From Closterium sp. NIES-65 (Eukaryota; Streptophyta; Zygnematophyceae; Desmidiales; Closteriaceae), in contig CANXME010002087.1 of assembly GCA_948144175.1 (NCBI GenBank), positions 558,001 through 622,000 on the forward strand: a stretch of DNA of 64,000 nt. Direction: 5' to 3'. This document shows positions 13,907 through 21,755 of this stretch, one piece after another. A program made the position numbers and the translations under genes. Within the stretch, counting starts at the first letter, position 1. Each line of letters begins with the position of its first letter. The notes beneath the pieces are model-generated. The model saw only the letters and a program-made list of their open reading frames with translations, did no database searches and was not told the origin of the DNA.

Positions 13907-13956
13907 CGCATGCACACAATTCATTTTTGAGACGGCCCAAAAATAACATGCTGTAG

Positions 13957-14403
13957 TTAACCGGACACTCCAGTGACAACACTGCTGTCAACAACTTCCA
14001 AACTAATCTCTTCTCCCTCACTCTCCTCCTCACTTCCCTCCTCTTTCCCTCCCTCTCCACTTTCCACACCTTTCCCTCCCTCCACTCCCCCCTTCTTACC
14101 CTCCCCATCGACCTCTCTCCTCCGTCCACCCAGCCTCTCCCTAATCCCCTCCTCAATCTCCCTCGCAACCTCCACGTTCTCCTTAAGAAAGTTCCTCGCG
14201 CCTTCCTTCCCCTGCCCGATCACTTCACCATCCTTTTTGTACCACGCACCAGACAGCGTAAGCAAGCCTTCTTTCACCCCCAAATCCAGGAGTTCCCCCT
14301 CCCGGGATATCCCGTGGCCAAACTCAATGTCGAATTCTGCCGTGCGGAAGGGCGGCGCAAGCTTGTTCTTGTTCACAGTTACGCGCACGCGGTTACCAAC
14401 AAT
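13957..14403 (-). CDS. recA: recA exon 8, C-terminus and stop
   Basis: It encodes [20 protein letters not shown], then [39 protein letters not shown] and [20 protein letters not shown]. This is the conserved RecA C-terminal domain. A tail rich in Glu, Gly and Lys follows ([15 protein letters not shown]), comparable with the acidic tail of bacterial RecA. It is 149 codons including stop. Confidence 0.85.
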
Positions 14404-14534
14404 CTGAGGCAGAGAACGGGATGATGGGGTAGCAGGGGAGAAGCGGGGGGAGCGGGAAGGGAGGAGAGAATGGGGGGAGACGGAGGTAGAAGGAGCATGG
14501 GAGAAGGGAGGGAGGAGAAGTAAGTGTGAGCAGG

Positions 14535-14930
14535 CCCTCACTCATCTCCAAGTCTAGGAGTTCCCCCTCCCGGGATATCCCGTGGCCAAACTCAATGTCA
14601 AACTCTGCCGTGCGGAAGGGCGGCGCAAGCTTGTTCTTGTTCACCGTTACGCGCACGCGGTTACCAACAATCTACAACGAAGAGGTGAGGATAGGTTAGC
14701 AGGGGAGGGGGGTAGGGGTGTGGGGGAAGCGAGGAGAGAACGGGAGGGAATGGCGGTAAACGGGAAATGAGGAGTGAGAGTGAGAAGGCCATCTTTACTC
14801 CCAGCTCCAACAGTTCCCCCTCCTGGGATATGTCCAGTGACCAAACTCAGTACTGAACTCTGCCGTGCGGAAGGGCGGCGCGAGCTTGTTCTTGTTCACC
14901 GTTACACGCATGCGGTTACCAACAATCTGA
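14535..14930 (-). repeat. Two extra copies of the recA exon 8 acceptor edge
   Basis: Copies at about 14540-14672 and 14795-14927 repeat the acceptor, the [18 protein letters not shown] coding stretch and part of the upstream intron. The period is about 255-270 bp. The nearer copy still reads cleanly to GELLDL. The farther one is decayed. Confidence 0.8.
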
Positions 14931-15199
14931 GGCGGAGAGGTGAGGATGGGTTAGCAGGAGGGGGGAAGGGGGGGAGAAGGAAAGTGGGAGGGGACGGGGT
15001 AGCGAGAGGATGGGAGCAAGGAAAGGAGGAGTGAGTGTGAGCGATTTTTTTCTCATCCGCAGGTCTAGGCGTTATCCTTTCTGATAGAGTGGTGAGTGCT
15101 GGCTTATCTCAATGTCACACCTGAGTGCTGTAGAGTGCTGAGTGGGGCTGTAAGGTGCTGAGGGGTGTTATGGGATGTTGTGGGATGCAGCGGGGTACA

Positions 15200-15600
15200 G
15201 AGGGGCGCTGGACCCAGCTCTCCTCCCAGCTTCAGCTGCGCCACTCTCTTAATGTGCAGCCGCAGCAACGCAGAGAACCTGACTGCCTTAGGGTGCACTG
15301 TTCTGTGGTGCTGCAGGGTGCCGAGGGGTGCTTGAGATTTCCCACCTTTTCTCCCTGCTTCAGCTGTGCCACTCTCTCAATGTACAGCTGCAGAGACGCA
15401 TAGAACTTGAGAGCATCGTCCCAGTGTGTGCCACTCACTAAAGAGATGCCATGCCTGAGTGCTGTAGGGTGCTGTGGGGAGCTGCAAGGTGCTGTGGGGT
15501 GCTGCAAGGTGCTGTGGGATGCTGAGGGGTGATTGGGAGTTGATAAATGCACCTTTTCTCCCTGCTTCATCTACGTCACCCTCTCGAGTAAATGCTGTGG
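15200..15600 (-). repeat. Three extra copies of the recA exon 7 donor edge
   Basis: Copies at about 15210-15270, 15345-15440 and 15540-15590 carry parts of [19 protein letters not shown]. Two keep a GT donor. Between them a 'cccctcagcacc'-type unit recurs. Confidence 0.8.
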
Positions 15601-15674
15601 AGTGCTTGATGGTGCTGAGTGGTGCTGAGGGGTGAGTTAGGGTGCAGAGGGGTACAGAGGAGCGCTGAACCCAC

Positions 15675-15812
15675 CTTTTCTCCCTGCTTCAGCTGCGCCA
15701 CTCTCTTAATGTGCAGTCGCAGCGACGCATAGAACTTGAGCGCATTCCCCCCCGACGTCACCTCCACCGGCATGCCCATGCCTGGCCCTCCCATCATGAG
15801 CTTCGACCGCAC
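15675..15812 (-). CDS. recA: recA exon 7, loop L2 and following helix
   Basis: It encodes [20 protein letters not shown], then [20 protein letters not shown] and LKQGEK. It matches [33 protein letters not shown] of bacterial RecA, which includes L2. The 138 bp is in phase 0 at both ends. Confidence 0.85.
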
Positions 15813-15867
15813 CTGAACATGAACAGGGGAGAGCGGAGGGAGGAGCGAAGGAGTTTAGGGAAGGAGC

Positions 15868-16060
15868 ACTCCCCCCAGACGTCACCTCCACCACCATGCC
15901 ATGCCCATCCCCGGCCCTCCCATCATGAGCTTCGATCGCACCTGCATGTGGACAGCGAGACACGGGGAAGAGGGAAGGGAGGAGCAATGCCTCCAGACGT
16001 CACCTCCACCACCATGCCATGCCCATCCCCGGCCCTCCCATCATGAGCTTCGAGCGCACT
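15868..16060 (-). repeat. Two extra copies of the recA exon 7 acceptor edge
   Basis: Copies at about 15870-15945 and 15985-16055 each encode [13 protein letters not shown] and VEVTSGG in part, next to acceptor-like sequence. They lie directly upstream of the true exon. Confidence 0.8.
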
Positions 16061-16099
16061 GCACCCACCCACTTACCATTCCAACCGCACTGTACCCAC

Positions 16100-16246
16100 C
16101 TGATTGACGAAGATGAGCACTGCCTGCGAGCGGTTGAGCGCCCCTGACAGCTTCCTCAGCGCCTGAGACATCATGCGCGCCTGCAGGGCTATGAAGGAGT
16201 CCCCCATCTCTCCTTCCAGCTCCGCTTGGGGCACCAGCGCTGCCAC
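16100..16246 (-). CDS. recA: recA exon 6, loop region
   Basis: It encodes [20 protein letters not shown], then [20 protein letters not shown] and QAVLIFVNQ. This is the RecA segment with the MMSQAMRKL and LLIFINQ blocks, next to DNA-binding loop L1. The 147 bp is in phase 0 at both ends (acceptor cacag, donor gtgggt). Confidence 0.85.
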
Positions 16247-16267
16247 CTGTGTTGCACAAGCAATATG

Positions 16268-16408
16268 GGGGAAAGTGGAGCATGGAGGGAAAAGTGGAGC
16301 ATGGAGGGGAAAGTGGAGCATGGAGGGGCAAGTGGAGCATGGAGGGGAAAGTGGAGCATGGAGGGGCAAGTGGAGCATGGAGGGGAAAGTGGAGCATGGA
16401 GGGGCAAG
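16268..16408. repeat. 19-bp minisatellite in recA intron
   Basis: The unit agtggagcatggaggggaa (variant ..ggggcaa) is repeated about seven times. It lies just upstream of exon 6 and before a partial exon 6 copy. Confidence 0.85.
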
Positions 16409-16429
16409 AGGGGACAAGTGAGGAAAATG

Positions 16430-16505
16430 AGACATCATGCGCGCTTGCAGGGCTATGAAAGAGTTTCCCATCTCTCCCTCCAGCTCCCGCGTGCAGTACA
16501 AGTTC
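16430..16505 (-). repeat. Extra copy of recA exon 6 acceptor half
   Basis: It encodes [20 protein letters not shown], close to exon 6, and then runs into unrelated intron sequence. Confidence 0.75.
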
Positions 16506-16632
16506 TGTCAGCTGTCGTAAGAACAAGGGAGAATTGATGATTGAAGAGAAGGGGGGAAAGAAGAAGGGTAGAAGACAGAACCTTAAACCTTGCCATGACA
16601 TTTAACACCTAAAGCTCCTCCCCACCACTCAC

Positions 16633-16741
16633 ACTATCAACCACAATGACGTCATAAGCACCGCTCCTGACGTTCTGATCCACAAGAGCCAACCCTGTCT
16701 CGCCACTGTCAGGCTGAGACAGGTGATGCGAGTCATATCCA
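16633..16741 (-). CDS. recA: recA exon 5, Walker B (best copy)
   Basis: It encodes a VDMTRI-like start, then QPDSGETGLALVDQNVRSGA and YDVIVVDS before donor gtgagt. That joins in phase 0 to VAALVPQ of exon 6. The 5' border is uncertain: as read, the exon is one base short of the frame set by exon 4. Incomplete copies of this exon lie at about 16780-16860, 17550-17620 and 17693-17775. Confidence 0.65.
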
Positions 16742-16779
16742 CTCCGAAAACCTATTTCCCAGATCCCTACGCCACTCAC

Positions 16780-16860
16780 ACTATCAACCACAATCACGTC
16801 ATAGGCGCCACTCCTAACGTTCTGATCCACCGGAGCAAGTCCTGTCTCCCCACTGTTCGT
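16780..16860 (-). repeat. Extra copy of recA exon 5
   Basis: It encodes SGETGLAPVDQNVRSGAYDV and IVVDS with a gtgagt donor, about 145 bp upstream of the best copy. Confidence 0.75.
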
Positions 16861-16918
16861 AAACCGTAATCCTGAAGCCCACAACTCGAAAGCACTCGCA
16901 CTATCACCACAATCACGA

Positions 16919-17550
16919 AAGGAAAGGGCTCGATGGATATGAAGGCCCATGCTGCTTTGTTTGTTTGTTTGTTTGTTTGTCTTTTTTTCCGCAACAAATT
17001 CTTGACAAGAAAAATGTTAGCTCGACGTGTCAAATCTGAAATTCTTGCTTTGCCCCCATTCAGGAAGAGCAAGATGCTGCGTTAAAGAAGCAGTGGGAGG
17101 TGGGGAAGTTGAATGCGCAGCTGGAGAGTTCGAGGGAGAGGTGGAGGCTGGAGGAAGAAGAAATGAGGGCTGAAATTGAAGAAATGAAGAGCAAATGGGA
17201 GGAGCAGAAAGAGGAGGCAAAAGACGACTCCACTTGCTCAGCACTGCAGGGCAGCGGTGCGCGGAGCAAGTCCTCTTTTGCCTCCTCCCATTTGCTCTTC
17301 ATTTCTTCAATTTCAGCCCTCATTTCTTCCTCTTCCATCCTCCACCTCTCCCTCGAACTCTCCAACTGTGCATTCAACTTCTCCACCCTCCCACTGCAGC
17401 TTTAACGCAGCATCTCGCTCTTCCTTAATGGGAGCAAAGCAAGAATTCAGATTTGACACGTCGAATAATATTTTTCTTGTCAAGAATTCGTTGCGGAAAA
17501 AAAAAAACTAAAACAGCATGTGCCTTCATATCCATCGAGCCCTTTCCTCC
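16919..17550. repeat. Long inverted repeat (foldback) in recA intron, encoding a coiled-coil fragment
   Basis: The arms are about 16919-17228 and 17273-17550, with a spacer of about 44 bp. They are near-perfect complements apart from small indels and a (TTTG)n run in the left arm only. Each arm holds an acceptor-like 'cccccattcag' followed by an open stretch with QLESSRERWR and EMRAEIEEMKSKWEE, a coiled coil. Neither the coiled coil nor the repeat resembles RecA. It could be a foldback-type DNA element that captured an exon, or an inverted duplication. No target duplication was found. Confidence 0.8.
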
Positions 17551-17775
17551 CAGTTTTGATCCACAAGAGCCAGGCCCGTCTCGCCACTATCAGGTGGGAC
17601 AGGTGCATGCGAGTCATGTCCACTCCACCCCCAGAGCCTTAAACTTGAAACCCCATACCCGACCCTAAACCTGAAAATCGGAACCTTGTTCCACTCACGC
17701 TGTCCACCACAATGACGTCATAGGCACCACTCCTGACGTTCTGATCCACCAGGTGAATGCGAGTCATGTCTGTCC
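17550..17775 (-). repeat. Two further partial copies of recA exon 5
   Basis: One part (about 17550-17620) reads GETGLALVDQ with flanking VDMTRMHL-like sequence. The other (about 17693-17775) reads VDQNVRSGAYDVIVVDS with a gtgagt donor. They lie just beyond the right arm of the inverted repeat. Confidence 0.7.
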
Positions 17776-17839
17776 ACTGTCCACCCCCAGCGCCCCCTGC
17801 TTTTGCCCCCCTCCCTCCCCCACTCACACTCCTCTCCTC

Positions 17840-18165
17840 TCCTCTACGCCTCTGCTGCCACCACATGCGGCGCCAGTGTTGTGTTGCATGTTGCCTTCGC
17901 CACAAGCAGTCACAATGTTGCCAACACCCCCCTCTCTTCCCCTCTATCCCCTCCCCACTCACCTCCTCGCTTCTGCGCCTCTGCCTGCTGCCTTCGATAC
18001 AAGCAGTCACATGTTGCCAACACTATGCACGAGCACAACTCACCCCCCCGTCCCCTCCCTCCCCCCCATTCCCCCTCTCCTTCCCCACTCTCACCTCCTC
18101 TCTTCTGAGCCTCTGCCACCACATGTAGCGCCAGGGTTGTCTTGCCTGTTGCCCTTCGCCACAAC
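17840..18165 (-). repeat. Extra copies of recA exon 4 donor edge
   Basis: Partial copies of [20 protein letters not shown] sit at about 18090-18160, and shorter worn ones at about 17965-17995 and 17840-17880. Each is followed by 'cacaatgttgcc'-type intron sequence. Confidence 0.7.
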
Positions 18166-18244
18166 CTCTTGAGAAATCGAAAAAATCACAATGTTGCCAG
18201 CACTACACACGCGTGAGAACACATACCCACTCCCCTTCTCTCAC

Positions 18245-18332
18245 CTCCTCTCTTCTGAGCCTCTGCCACCACATGTAGCGCCAGGGTTGTCTTGCCTGTT
18301 GCCTCGGGCCCATAGATCTCCACCACTCGGCC
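18245..18332 (-). CDS. recA: recA exon 4, Walker A
   Basis: It encodes [20 protein letters not shown] and [10 protein letters not shown]. The P-loop GPEATGKTT corresponds to GPESSGKTT of E. coli RecA. The acceptor is cccag and the donor gtgaga. Exon 3 joins in phase 0 ([11 protein letters not shown]). It ends in phase 1. Confidence 0.85.
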
Positions 18333-18421
18333 CTGGGGGACGCCCAAGGTACAGAGGCACAGAGGCACAGAGTGACAGGCGAATAAATGCCAGGGGAGAA
18401 AAAAAGAAAGCATGTGTTGAC

Positions 18422-18520
18422 TTTTGAGACGTCTCAAAACAGTGCCAGGGTAGTCTTGCCCATTGCCTCGGGCCCATAGATCTCCACCACTCGGCCCCGG
18501 GGGACGCCCAAGGTACAGAG
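18422..18520 (-). repeat. Extra copy of recA exon 4 acceptor edge beside an 18-bp palindrome
   Basis: The stretch repeats [11 protein letters not shown] with an altered acceptor (about 18430-18520). A perfect palindrome, TTTTGAGACGTCTCAAAA, sits at 18422-18439 between this copy and exon 4. Confidence 0.8.
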
Positions 18521-18614
18521 GCATGGAGTGACAGAGGGAAATAACAGAAAAAGGCATGGTGCGGGGCCTTCGGAGGTTGCGTAATGTCAACTCTTTAGCT
18601 GAGCTGCTACTCCT

Positions 18615-18684
18615 CCGAAGGAGCAGAGGGGGGACGTAGCTGAGCTGCTACTCCTAATCCTACGTCCCCCCTCTGCTCCTTCGG
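18615..18684. repeat. Perfect 24-bp inverted repeat
   Basis: The arms 18615-18638 and 18661-18684 are exact reverse complements separated by 22 bp. A direct repeat, tagctgagctgctactcct, overlaps the left arm and recurs in the spacer. Confidence 0.85.
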
Positions 18685-18696
18685 TGCGAGTTCGCC

Positions 18697-18766
18697 AAGC
18701 AAGCGTCTAATCTTGAAATCACTTTTGAGAATTCTCAAAAGTGTTTGCCAAGCAAGCGTCTAATCT
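18697..18766. repeat. 24-bp palindrome between direct repeats
   Basis: A perfect palindrome of the type cTTTTGAG-AATT-CTCAAAAg occupies 18720-18743. It is flanked on both sides by the direct repeat gccaagcaagcgtctaatct. Confidence 0.85.
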
Positions 18767-19080
18767 TTAGCGAAAGCAGGCTTGCAAAGAGAAGAACGGC
18801 GTGTACGAGGAATACATAAGTTGAGCTGCCACAACACAAAAAAAAGGGTAACTGTTCTGGAAAAAGCGCCAGCTGCAAATGGCTGGTGAGGAAAGGGACG
18901 GCGAGAAGCGGAAGAGCGTGTGAGGGGTGAGTGCGTGTAGAAGAGAAAGAATAAGGCACCACAGAACGAACGACTGTTGATGGAAAAAGGCTTGACCGAA
19001 GAATACGAAAAGAAAAGGCAGCACGCGAAGCACCGGCGTGCGGCTGCAATCCGAGAAGATGGCTGGTGAAAAAAGAAGAG

Positions 19081-19099
19081 TTTTGAGACGTCTCGAAAA
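19081..19099. repeat. Near-palindrome of the TTTTGAG..CTC type
   Basis: TTTTGAGACGTCTCGAAAA differs by one inserted base from the palindrome at 18422. It is followed by 'ggcagcatgc', which matches 'ggcagcacgc' near 19015. Confidence 0.7.
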
Positions 19100-19226
19100 G
19101 GCAGCATGCAGAGGTCAGCATCCAGAGGGAAGCACTCGAGCTCTGGTGGGACGCATCTGTTCTGTGCTTCAGTGAGTGCCTGATTGCCAACAGAATTCTC
19201 CTAAAACTTGCATTGTACTCATAGAA

Positions 19227-19560
19227 AAACTCACCCGAGGGAATCCTCCAATCCCAGGGGCGGCATCCAGGGCAATGGAGCCTGCCTGAGGAGATGACCG
19301 GGACGCAGCAGGCTGCCATGTTGGTATTGGTGGTTCAGTACGTGTCTGACTGCTTGCAGTAGGAGGCATGTACAGCACGCATGTTGACTTTTGGGTCGAC
19401 TCAAAAGTTGACTGCTTGCAGTAGGAGGCATGTACAGCACGCATGCGTTGCCCGCACACACACTCACCCAAGGGAAGCCCCCAATCCCAAGGGCGGAGTC
19501 CAGGGCAATGGAGCGCGAGGGAATGACCGGGACGCGGTGCAAGGTCAGGTCAGCATTGGT
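19227..19560 (-). repeat. Two extra copies of recA exon 3 donor edge
   Basis: Copies at about 19466-19560 (HRVPVIPSRSIALDSALG, donor kept) and about 19227-19325 (GSIALDAAPGIGGFPR, donor kept) lie downstream of the full exon. Confidence 0.85.
19345..19450. repeat. Imperfect palindrome between direct repeats
   Basis: A palindrome with one mismatched pair (19387-19408, centre GTCGAC) lies between two copies of gactgcttgcagtaggaggc and the bases that follow. It has the same TTTTG..CAAAA outer arms as those at 18422 and 18720. Confidence 0.8.
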
Positions 19561-19645
19561 GCTTCGGTGAGTGTTTGATTGCAACAAGATTCACCTGGAG
19601 CATGCAGTGCATTGCCCAGTGCCCACCCACAAACTCGTGACTCAC

Positions 19646-19783
19646 CCGAGGGAAGCCCCCAATCCCGAGGGCGGAATCTAGGGCGATGGAGCCTGAGGGG
19701 ATGACTGGGACGCGGTGGGCGGCCAAGTCCGCCTCAGTGCCGCCCAGAACCATCACTGCCTCCCGCCCAAACTTGGCTCGCAG
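19646..19783 (-). CDS. recA: recA exon 3
   Basis: It encodes LRAKFGREAVMVLGGTEAD, then HRVPVIPSGSIALDSALG and IGGFPR before donor gtgagt. This matches the bacterial RecA core start (FGKGSIMRLG ... ISTGSLSLDIALGAGGLP). The 138 bp is in phase 0 at both ends. Confidence 0.85.
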
Positions 19784-19849
19784 CTGTAGGGGTGCGTGGG
19801 AAGGGTGGGAAAGGGTTGAGAGCATGGGAAAGCGTGTGGGGAAGGAGCG

Positions 19850-20030
19850 TCAGCCTCAGTGCCGCCCAGAACCATCACTGCCTCCCGCCCAAACTTGGCT
19901 CGCAGCTGCAGAGGTGTGTGGGGTGGGGTGGGGGGAGACAAAACAAGGGGGGTGAGCGACTAGCTCAGCATCAGTGCCGCCCAGAACCATAACTGCCTCC
20001 TGGAGAGACTTGGCTCGCAGCTGAAGGGGC
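19850..20030 (-). repeat. Two extra copies of recA exon 3 acceptor edge
   Basis: Copies at about 19855-19910 and 19962-20025 encode LRAKFGREAVMVLGGTEAD or a variant, each with a cag acceptor-like end. They lie upstream of the full exon. Confidence 0.85.
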
Positions 20031-20159
20031 GAGTGGGGCGAGGGAGGAATGCAAAAAGCAGTCCTGGTGGTGAGTGAGAGGAAGGGAGAAAATGCGGAGG
20101 AGAGTGTGAGGAAGGTGAGAAGGGGAAGGAGAACGTGGGGAAGAGGAGACGGTGGAATA

Positions 20160-20690
20160 GCATGGTCTTGCACCATATCTGCTCACACCACCACACCTCC
20201 TCACCTCCGTTACTTCTCACACCAGTATACCTGCTTGCACGACCATATCTGCTCACTCCACCACACCTCCTCGCTCCACCATACCTCCTCACACCTCACA
20301 CCTCCTCACTCCATCATACCTCCTCACACCTCAAACTTCCTCATTCCACCAAACCTTACCTCCTCACACCACCATCATACCTCCTGAACGGCTTGCTCCA
20401 GCAGCTGCTGCTTCCTTGTGACTAGGTCCTTCTCAATCTTCTCCTCCACCTTCCCTCCTCTCCCTGCCTTTCCTCCTCACCATACCTCCTCACACTACAA
20501 TACCTCCTCCCACCTCATACCTTCTCACACCACCATACCTCCTGAACGACTTGCTCCAGCAGCTGCTGCTGCTGTTGCAAGAATTCTCGAAATCAGGTTA
20601 CCACCATACCTCCTCACCATACCTACCTCCTCACCATACCTCCGCACCACCATACCTACTCATCACCATACCTCCTCACACCACCATCAT
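20160..20690. repeat. CACC/CCTC-rich intron repeats with two exon 2 donor-edge copies
   Basis: The stretch is a degenerate array of 'caccatacctcctca'. Embedded are a good copy of exon 2's end (about 20381-20470, DLVTRKQQLLEQAVQE with donor gtatga) and a shorter one (about 20540-20590). Confidence 0.75.
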
Positions 20691-20692
20691 AC

Positions 20693-20829
20693 CTCCTGAA
20701 CGGCTTGCTCCAGCAGCTGCTGCTTCCTTGTGACTAAGTCCTCCTCACTCTTCTCCTCCGCCTTCCCCCCTCTCCCTGCCTTTCCGTCCCTCGCCTGCTG
20801 CACTGCTGCTGCCTTGCCAGTGCGCCGAC
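20693..20829 (-). CDS. recA: recA exon 2
   Basis: It opens after acceptor gtgcag and encodes RRTGKAAAVQQARDG, then a charged helix EEKSEEDLVTRKQQLLEQ ending AVQE at donor gtatga. The last helix aligns with the N-terminal helix of RecA that precedes QIEKQFGKG. The 137-bp length takes phase 1 to phase 0. Confidence 0.65.
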
Positions 20830-20879
20830 CTGCACGGATCAAGTGCAGATGCAGTGACAGGGACAATAAGCAATGGGTC

Positions 20880-20945
20880 TTCATCCCTCTCCTCGCCCCT
20901 CGTGTGCTGCACTGCTGCTGCCTTGCCAGTGCGTCAACCTGAAAG
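20880..20945 (-). repeat. Extra copy of recA exon 2 acceptor edge
   Basis: It encodes the start of exon 2 (ALARQQQCSTRGARRG in one frame) after an acceptor-like cag, about 60-115 bp upstream of the true exon. Confidence 0.65.
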
Positions 20946-21175
20946 ATCATCAGCGCACGCATTATCAGCAAATAAATGGGCGCATGCATGATCAGTGCAT
21001 GTGCATGCACACAGAGGCAGGCCAAAGTATCACCACACATCCATTCCCCTTTCTAGGGAATACATGCTGACGTGGCACTTCTGAACGTAATAACGGATCA
21101 TTGCTACATCAATTCAGCTTCATGACGTGGCTGAATGAATTACACCACATGTGAATACAACCCAACCTATCTCAC

Positions 21176-21755
21176 CTTTCGCTGAGCTGAATCTAGCAAC
21201 AGAGAGCCCGCCATAAATGCCGCTCGTTCGGATTCCATCGCCACCAACTGCGATTGTCCCATTCCGAACCAAGCCATGCAGTTGAACCGAAGCAGCTGCC
21301 GAGCCTGCTGTGCCTACATGGCCTGCCGAACTAAGAGGTTCGGCAACAGCCCAGTGACCAGGCTTGCTGAGCGGCATGGAATTTGCCAAAGCCCAGGGTT
21401 GATGGCGACAAGGTTCTTTACTGCAGTTGGCCACGTCAAATGTGGTCACGGCCACATCAGCTGTGGCCCAGGCTGCATTGTTGGTCAACATTTGTGTGTC
21501 CGTACTCAAGCTGCTTGTAAGCACAGGGATGTTACTGCTGGTAACCACAAGGGCGCTGCTGCTGTTGCTTCTATCTGTTTGCCTTGTGACTTTGTTACAA
21601 ATGCTGCTGTCACCGTTTATGCTGACTGGACTATCCAACCCTAAAGAGCCACGCGTACAACCAATTTGACAAGCTGAGCCCTGCCACGTGTGTCCGAGGC
21701 ATTGGCGGGCCCTTCTGCCTGAAAGCCGCCGCGCTAAAACGCCAAGACCAGACAT
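21176..21755 (-). CDS. recA: recA exon 1: start and transit-peptide-like extension
   Basis: It starts MSGLGVLARRLSGRRARQCL, which is Arg-rich and lacks acidic residues, typical of a mitochondrial or plastid presequence. About 190 residues of Ser/Ala/Thr-rich sequence follow with no recognisable domain. It ends GLSVARFSSAK and the donor gtgaga. The 580-bp length leaves phase 1, which matches exon 2. The start is the first Met of the frame; whether a further upstream exon exists cannot be told. Elements elsewhere in the window make the promoter context unclear. Confidence 0.6.

Follow-up and report, generated by a model that had tools for sequence, protein, structure and literature searches.

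The origin and growth of introns is an old question, and few genomes allow its steps to be watched. Cut-and-paste transposons, including miniature inverted-repeat transposable elements (MITEs), leave a target duplication that is short and has a fixed length in each family. According to passages of PMC9860276, introner families with cut-and-paste signs have target duplications of 3-9 bp. LIMP, as described in parts of PMC4524435, exists in 19 copies in the mitochondrial genome of Lobosphaera, has a 7-nt loop and is linked to rearrangements. For the Closterium peracerosum-strigosum-littorale complex, passages of PMC10407611 describe haploid-phase material and the duplication of over half of the gene groups in NIES-65; no word starting with palindrom- occurs in its main text, and exon-edge copies are not mentioned in its abstract, its outline, its section 7 and the passages used here. 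In this study, a stretch of 64,000 nucleotides from Closterium sp. NIES-65 (contig CANXME010002087.1, positions 558,001 to 622,000; the window) was analysed together with the genome it comes from (874 Mb, 2400 contigs), in which it is part of contig C1789. The window contains a bacterial-type recA gene on the minus strand, from exon 1 (21755-21176) to the end of exon 8 (13957), whose introns are filled with partial copies of the neighbouring exon edges. We consider it probable that frequent short tandem duplication and deletion act in this genome, that the resulting exon-edge copies are tolerated, and that a distinct share of the duplications is marked by a short palindrome.

Exon-edge copies in the introns of recA

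Exons 2-8 of a near-identical sister copy of the gene (exon 2 as a 92-nt piece) were searched against the gene region of the window. The search gave 35 same-strand matches; the opposite strand gave 2 and the reversed-letter control 7. Seven of the 35 lie in the GA-rich tail of exon 8 with low identity and were left out, six are the exons, one is a remnant of exon 5, and 21 are partial copies. The full-length exon 2 query adds one copy (20938-20894), which brings the number to 22 partial copies, and none of the seven introns is without one (Table 1). These are direct, adjacent copies that include the exon edge, the form of a tandem duplication at splice sites. Nine carry an acceptor edge (one of exon 2, two of exon 3, one of exon 4, one of exon 6, two of exon 7 and two of exon 8), and the AG is rightly placed in seven of them. 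Twelve carry a donor edge (two of exon 2, two of exon 3, three of exon 4, two of exon 5 and three of exon 7), and ten of them keep the GT. In the 8.8-kb gene region, 39% of the sequence lies in local direct repeats, compared with 4% and 3% of the remaining window.

These results confirm and extend a sequence-only reading of the stretch, which had reported acceptor-edge copies of exons 2, 3, 4, 6, 7 and 8, donor-edge copies of exons 2, 3, 4 and 7, incomplete copies of exon 5, an exon 2 copy in intron 1, and many usable-looking GT and AG. The same exons were recovered for the acceptor edges and the donor edges, exon 5 joined the latter, the exon 2 copy in intron 1 proved to be an acceptor-edge copy, and the pattern holds for seven of seven introns. 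Three partial copies of exon 5 are present, and intact exon 5 itself is not in the window. The exon lengths given there (580, 137, 138, 88, 147, 138 and 447) fit, and the proposal that tandem duplications across exon edges enlarged the introns is supported for every intron of recA. The many well-placed AG and GT could also point to a selected system of alternative or mutually exclusive exons. However, the copies are partial and change within a divergence of 0.54%, which makes such a system extremely unlikely.

The recA sister copies and other genes

The intact sister lies inverted on the same contig, about 370 kb away (about C1789:193.7-206.4 kb). A more distant recA on C2111 has similar partial copies. 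Exons 3-8 of the sister have AG and GT at all inner edges and form one open frame, and the protein matches PF00154 (E 2.7e-105, positions 13-262 of 262) and PF21096 (E 1.1e-18), the RecA core and C-terminal domain. Judged by these profile matches, the sister is a bacterial-type RecA over its full length. Exon 5 of the sister is 173 nt long and is preceded by three acceptor copies; it encodes FVDAEHSLD, which aligns with FIDAEHALD of a solved RecA and which we take to be the site of the catalytic glutamate. The final residues encoded by exon 1 of the window copy, SVARFSSAK, look by reading like a targeting peptide.

Within the gene, window and sister differ at 34 of 6328 aligned bases (0.54%). 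Yet whole units distinguish them. A 127-bp unit with the exon 3 acceptor edge is found only in the window, and only the sister has a stretch of 581 bp, a repeat of 42 bp and a palindrome insertion of 40 bp. In the exon 2 array, the 92-nt piece has 14 full-length copies in the sister versus 2 in the window. Whole-unit differences at such low divergence indicate that gain and loss of exon-edge units is recent.

The window copy is broken and probably not a working gene, because most of its exon 5 is lost. The 581-bp gap takes the first 119 nt of exon 5 together with the three upstream acceptor copies, so that 54 of 173 nt of the exon with the FVDAEH segment stand in place (17752-17699), and the three old partial copies that are left lack its first 59 nt. 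This loss agrees with the sequence-only reading, which gave no length for exon 5. Recombination between exon copies is not favoured as its cause; by reading, the breakpoints share about 3 bp. Amid the partial exon 5 copies of the intron lies an inverted-repeat stretch of 629 bp (window 16920-17548, arms 86-92% complementary), which is also present in the sister. In intron 3, a perfect 25-bp inverted repeat with a 20-bp spacer was seen at window 18615-18684.

The arms flanking recA also match in inverted orientation, in blocks of 0.7-10.6 kb that are 96.9-99.9% alike and add up to about 76 kb in a 108-kb part of the left arm; large insertions separate the matching blocks. Stricter blocks contain 924 mismatches in 69,476 aligned bases, and 7.2 kb further out also align. 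About 55 kb in window 22245-64000 and beyond (C1789:580245-635650) are absent from the sister arm, where the flanks of this stretch join at 193668-193672 and overlap by 5 bp, a pattern like that left by a large insertion. Overall, C1789:163107-278000 and 649210-500001 form a large inverted duplication with many insertion differences. It may be a real palindrome-like duplication or a joining error; both are possible.

Genes in this assembly occur as paired contigs, and the two recA copies are inverted on one contig, which might suggest that the copies are an artefact of collapsed or interleaved copies, or of sequencing hairpin adapters. However, many copies are diverged (identities of 78-98%) and common to both sisters, and palindromes stand at the same place in two or three contigs. 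A missed adapter yields inverted copies, not direct ones. Interleaved haplotypes, a caution raised by the sequence-only reading, are unlikely, since most duplicates share their places in the sister copies, these differ by whole units, and other genes behave alike. An artefact is therefore hardly credible. Paired contigs first gave the impression of unpurged diploid haplotypes. This was dropped, and the pairs were handled as sister copies, as a working assumption, because PMC10407611 describes haploid-phase samples with many duplicated genes.

Other genes were scored when the same profile range was repeated within 3 kb. This measure takes each member of a contig pair as a locus of its own, which makes the loci non-independent, and it misses short copies. 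In the RNA-polymerase search, 34 of 77 rows were left out as organelle or bacterial-like single-frame matches. Repeated profile ranges were found at 6 of 22 CCT/cpn60 loci, 2 of 28 proteasome loci, 6 of 7 RNA-polymerase loci and 8 of 17 MCM loci. In these four families besides recA, 22 of 74 loci have repeated exon stretches, a count that stands without another eukaryote as control. The search for further genes with the recA-like pattern, which the sequence-only reading had proposed, was thus positive; its description of recA holds, and its emphasis on a single gene does not. Exon-edge duplication is not special to recA. An exon-intron unit of an RNA-polymerase gene also differs in number between C1969 and C2027 (4 versus 3 by profile match, 5 versus 4 by reading), and a 38-bp unit near a palindrome site, a plain repeat, has two copies on C1759 and one on C9.

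A short palindrome between part of the copies

The palindromic core TTTTGAGNNNNCTCAAAA occurs 30,327 times in the assembly, paired contigs and arrays included, versus 4 times for the backward pattern, which is also a palindrome. With centres of 5-30 bases the totals are 2,251 versus 164, many of them compound or damaged palindromes. In 61 sites the centre of the core is TCGA (22), ACGT (18), GCGC (12), AATT (4) or one of five others seen once each, and the core is perfectly palindromic by its centre in 56 of them, giving it the inverted ends that MITEs have. Pairing continues past the core by at least 3 bases per arm in 31% of sites versus 1.6% expected, and the longest form is a 40-bp palindrome. 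As single-stranded DNA, the longer form gives a stable hairpin, and two 20-base forms are less stable. By reading, the core ends have no GT...AG pair. No excess of half-sites was found in 306 kb (6 versus 9 for the reversed 8-mer), and the idea that the palindrome is the two ends of an abundant longer transposon is unsupported for lack of such an excess. As text, four core sequences had no match in the open-licence literature, and no paper on such palindromes was found among the titles listed for Closterium genomes or in broader searches.

All five near-exact palindromes of the window, which the sequence-only reading had not reported, fall within the recA region; the other 55 kb have none. Two more palindrome-bearing stretches hold one YCII match and one CcmE match. 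From this small sample, the palindrome seems to favour gene DNA.

Flanks were compared for 33 clusters fetched from a contig-order list on three contigs, which is not a random sample, with one core per locus and 1056 cross-locus pairs as control. At 29 of 33 sites the match between the left and the right flank exceeds 99% of controls, and at 25 it exceeds all of them. Of these 25 sites, 11 have both copies within 10 bp of the core, and 19 have at least one copy that close. A copy-insert-copy parse (gaps of at most 30 bp) was obtained in 31 of 59 sites, some of them arrays, with an insert of 18-55 bp (median 28) and a duplicate of 16-137 bp (median 54). In one full/empty pair, the 40-bp insertion carried only by the sister recA has a 16-bp target duplicate. 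In the RNA-polymerase gene, a palindrome separates two acceptor-edge copies (pyrimidine tract, AG and about 38 following bases) on C1969 as well as on C2027, and the exon at this palindrome likewise has two copies. The sites L043, L049 and L065 are arrays of four to five units with one palindrome and one target copy per unit, as if a stamped duplication had been re-amplified.

These sites could be explained by a miniature DNA transposon of a known kind, or by its footprint, if the target duplication merely looks long through landing in plain tandem repeats. The palindrome can be read as two joined inverted ends, and C1658 has a plain repeat beside a palindrome-marked one. However, the duplicates span 16-137 bp with ends abutting in many sites, the full/empty pair exists, and half ends lack the excess described above. 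We regard this explanation as unlikely.

It could also be proposed that the palindrome is behind every exon-edge copy, as an insertion with a long target duplication whose palindrome later decayed or was deleted. The 30,327 intact cores would suit this proposal, and degenerate palindromes do adjoin partial exon 2 copies of the array and one exon 4 copy in recA. In contrast, fresh unit differences without palindrome were seen for the 127-bp unit, the RNA-polymerase unit and units of 37, 38 and 72 bp, and by reading no palindrome lies between the four exon 5 acceptor copies or the three exon 8 copies. An origin of all copies from the palindrome is quite improbable.

Several results weigh against the reading preferred here. 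A palindrome (with at most 3 mismatches) stands at the junction in 6 of 22 repeat pairs of the window gene, and most copies have none. One of eight inspected length differences of duplicated units has a palindrome. No trend of palindrome presence with copy age appeared in 25 close pairs, and the idea that palindromes mark young pairs only was rejected on this basis. Among 14 palindrome sites compared by hand with partner contigs by flank spacing, no empty site was found: 12 have equal length in every partner, L050 is 1 bp off in one of two partners, and L042 is 37 bp off, a difference that is a plain repeat. Local-repeat cover also reaches up to 23% in some other stretches of C1789 without near-exact palindromes. 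Because only 6 of the 22 pairs have a junction palindrome, we see two layers, a general tandem instability and a palindrome-marked share.

Table 1. Positions of recA exons, partial exon copies and palindromes in the window
Feature	Position	Strand	Remark
recA exon 1	21176..21755	-	580 bp; frame stays open through exons 2 and 3; donor GTGAGATA
recA exon 2	20693..20829	-	137 bp
recA exon 3	19646..19783	-	138 bp
recA exon 4	18245..18332	-	88 bp
recA exon 5 remnant	17699..17752	-	last 54 nt of 173; gap of 581 bp at 17752/17753
recA exon 6	16100..16246	-	147 bp
recA exon 7	15675..15812	-	138 bp
recA exon 8	13957..14403	-	447 bp
Exon 2 acceptor-edge copy, intron 1	20894..20938	-	AG kept
Exon 2 donor-edge copies, two	20381..20570 (20570-20539, 20473-20381)	-	GT kept
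Exon 3 acceptor-edge copies, two	19849..20020 (20020-19951, 19905-19849)	-	about one unit (127 bp) not in sister
Exon 3 donor-edge copies, two	19235..19562 (19562-19472, 19321-19235)	-	exon search
Exon 4 acceptor-edge copy	18441..18496	-	cut off beside palindrome 18422-18439
Exon 4 donor-edge copies, three	17834..18153 (18153-18095, 17985-17963, 17896-17834)	-	exon search
Exon 5 partial copies, three	16634..17626 (17626-17553, 16854-16781, 16745-16634)	-	exon search
Exon 6 acceptor-edge copy	16428..16510	-	exon search
Exon 7 acceptor-edge copies, two	15866..16059 (16059-15984, 15941-15866)	-	exon search
Exon 7 donor-edge copies, three	15218..15584 (15584-15553, 15416-15346, 15289-15218)	-	exon search
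Exon 8 acceptor-edge copies, two	14523..14926 (14926-14777, 14671-14523)	-	exon search
Palindrome TTTTGAGACGTCTCAAAA	18422..18439	.	at junction of exon 4 copies
Palindrome TTTTGAGAATTCTCAAAA	18723..18740	.	between 25-bp direct repeats
Palindrome, 1 mismatch	19081..19098	.	motif scan
Palindrome, 1 mismatch	19389..19406	.	between 37-bp direct repeats
Palindrome, 1 mismatch	13925..13942	.	just after exon 8 stop
Empty site of 40-bp insertion	14805..14807	.	sister carries palindrome and 16-bp duplicate here

Proposed mechanism and known systems

In the reading that we prefer, gene DNA of this alga would undergo frequent short tandem duplication and deletion of tens to hundreds of bp, because whole units differ between the near-identical recA sisters and between paired contigs, and because unrelated gene families repeat exon stretches. 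If an exon edge is included in a duplication, splicing could remove the additional copy along with the intron. Such a copy would therefore be tolerated, stay and decay, while selection keeps one full exon. Introns would thereby fill with exon-edge copies and decoy splice sites, and the same instability may delete a real exon, as in the window recA.

A share of the duplications has the palindrome, from 18 to about 40 bp with the core TTTTGAGNNNNCTCAAAA, exactly or nearly between the copies. For this share, a hairpin-forming sequence may be put into a widely staggered break, and filling in of the single strands would leave 16-137 bp of host DNA on both sides. The palindrome might be moved by an enzyme, be reverse-transcribed from a hairpin RNA, or be a filler captured by repair. 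The data agree both with a mobile hairpin that enters a wide staggered cut and with a hairpin captured by repair, and the palindrome may represent a mobile or repair-made type of sequence not described before. A bolder view, which we hold only tentatively and rate at somewhat below even chances, is that of a new genome invader: an empty palindrome of 18 to about 40 bp that duplicates 16 to more than 100 bp of target at each entry and stamps exon edges and decoys into genes.

Near-identical sister genes that differ by whole exon-edge units make junctions and rates readable directly. Should the palindrome prove mobile, it would be far shorter than usual elements and would break the rule of fixed target duplications; should it be a repair filler, it would indicate an unusual way of repairing breaks in a probable close algal relative of land plants. 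The invader view, if true, would provide an engine of intron growth without splice-site-bearing transposons.

The intron gain by tandem genomic duplication described for the potato RdRp gene in parts of PMC4974935 shares with recA a duplication involving splice-site sequence. Compared with that case as given there, existing introns grow here and collect partial copies, with no new intron position seen; the pattern extends to many genes, and part of the duplications carry a palindrome. Introners, in the passages of PMC9860276, share the many dispersed insertions, some of them in genes; here, however, the duplicates are 16-137 bp and the palindrome has nothing inside. The same range of duplicate lengths departs from the short and fixed target duplication of MITEs. 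LIMP of the Lobosphaera mitochondria, as far as the parts of PMC4524435 describe it, shares the short, dispersed, hairpin-forming palindromes in a green alga, whereas the palindrome reported here has more than 30,000 copies in the assembly and stands beside duplications of host DNA.

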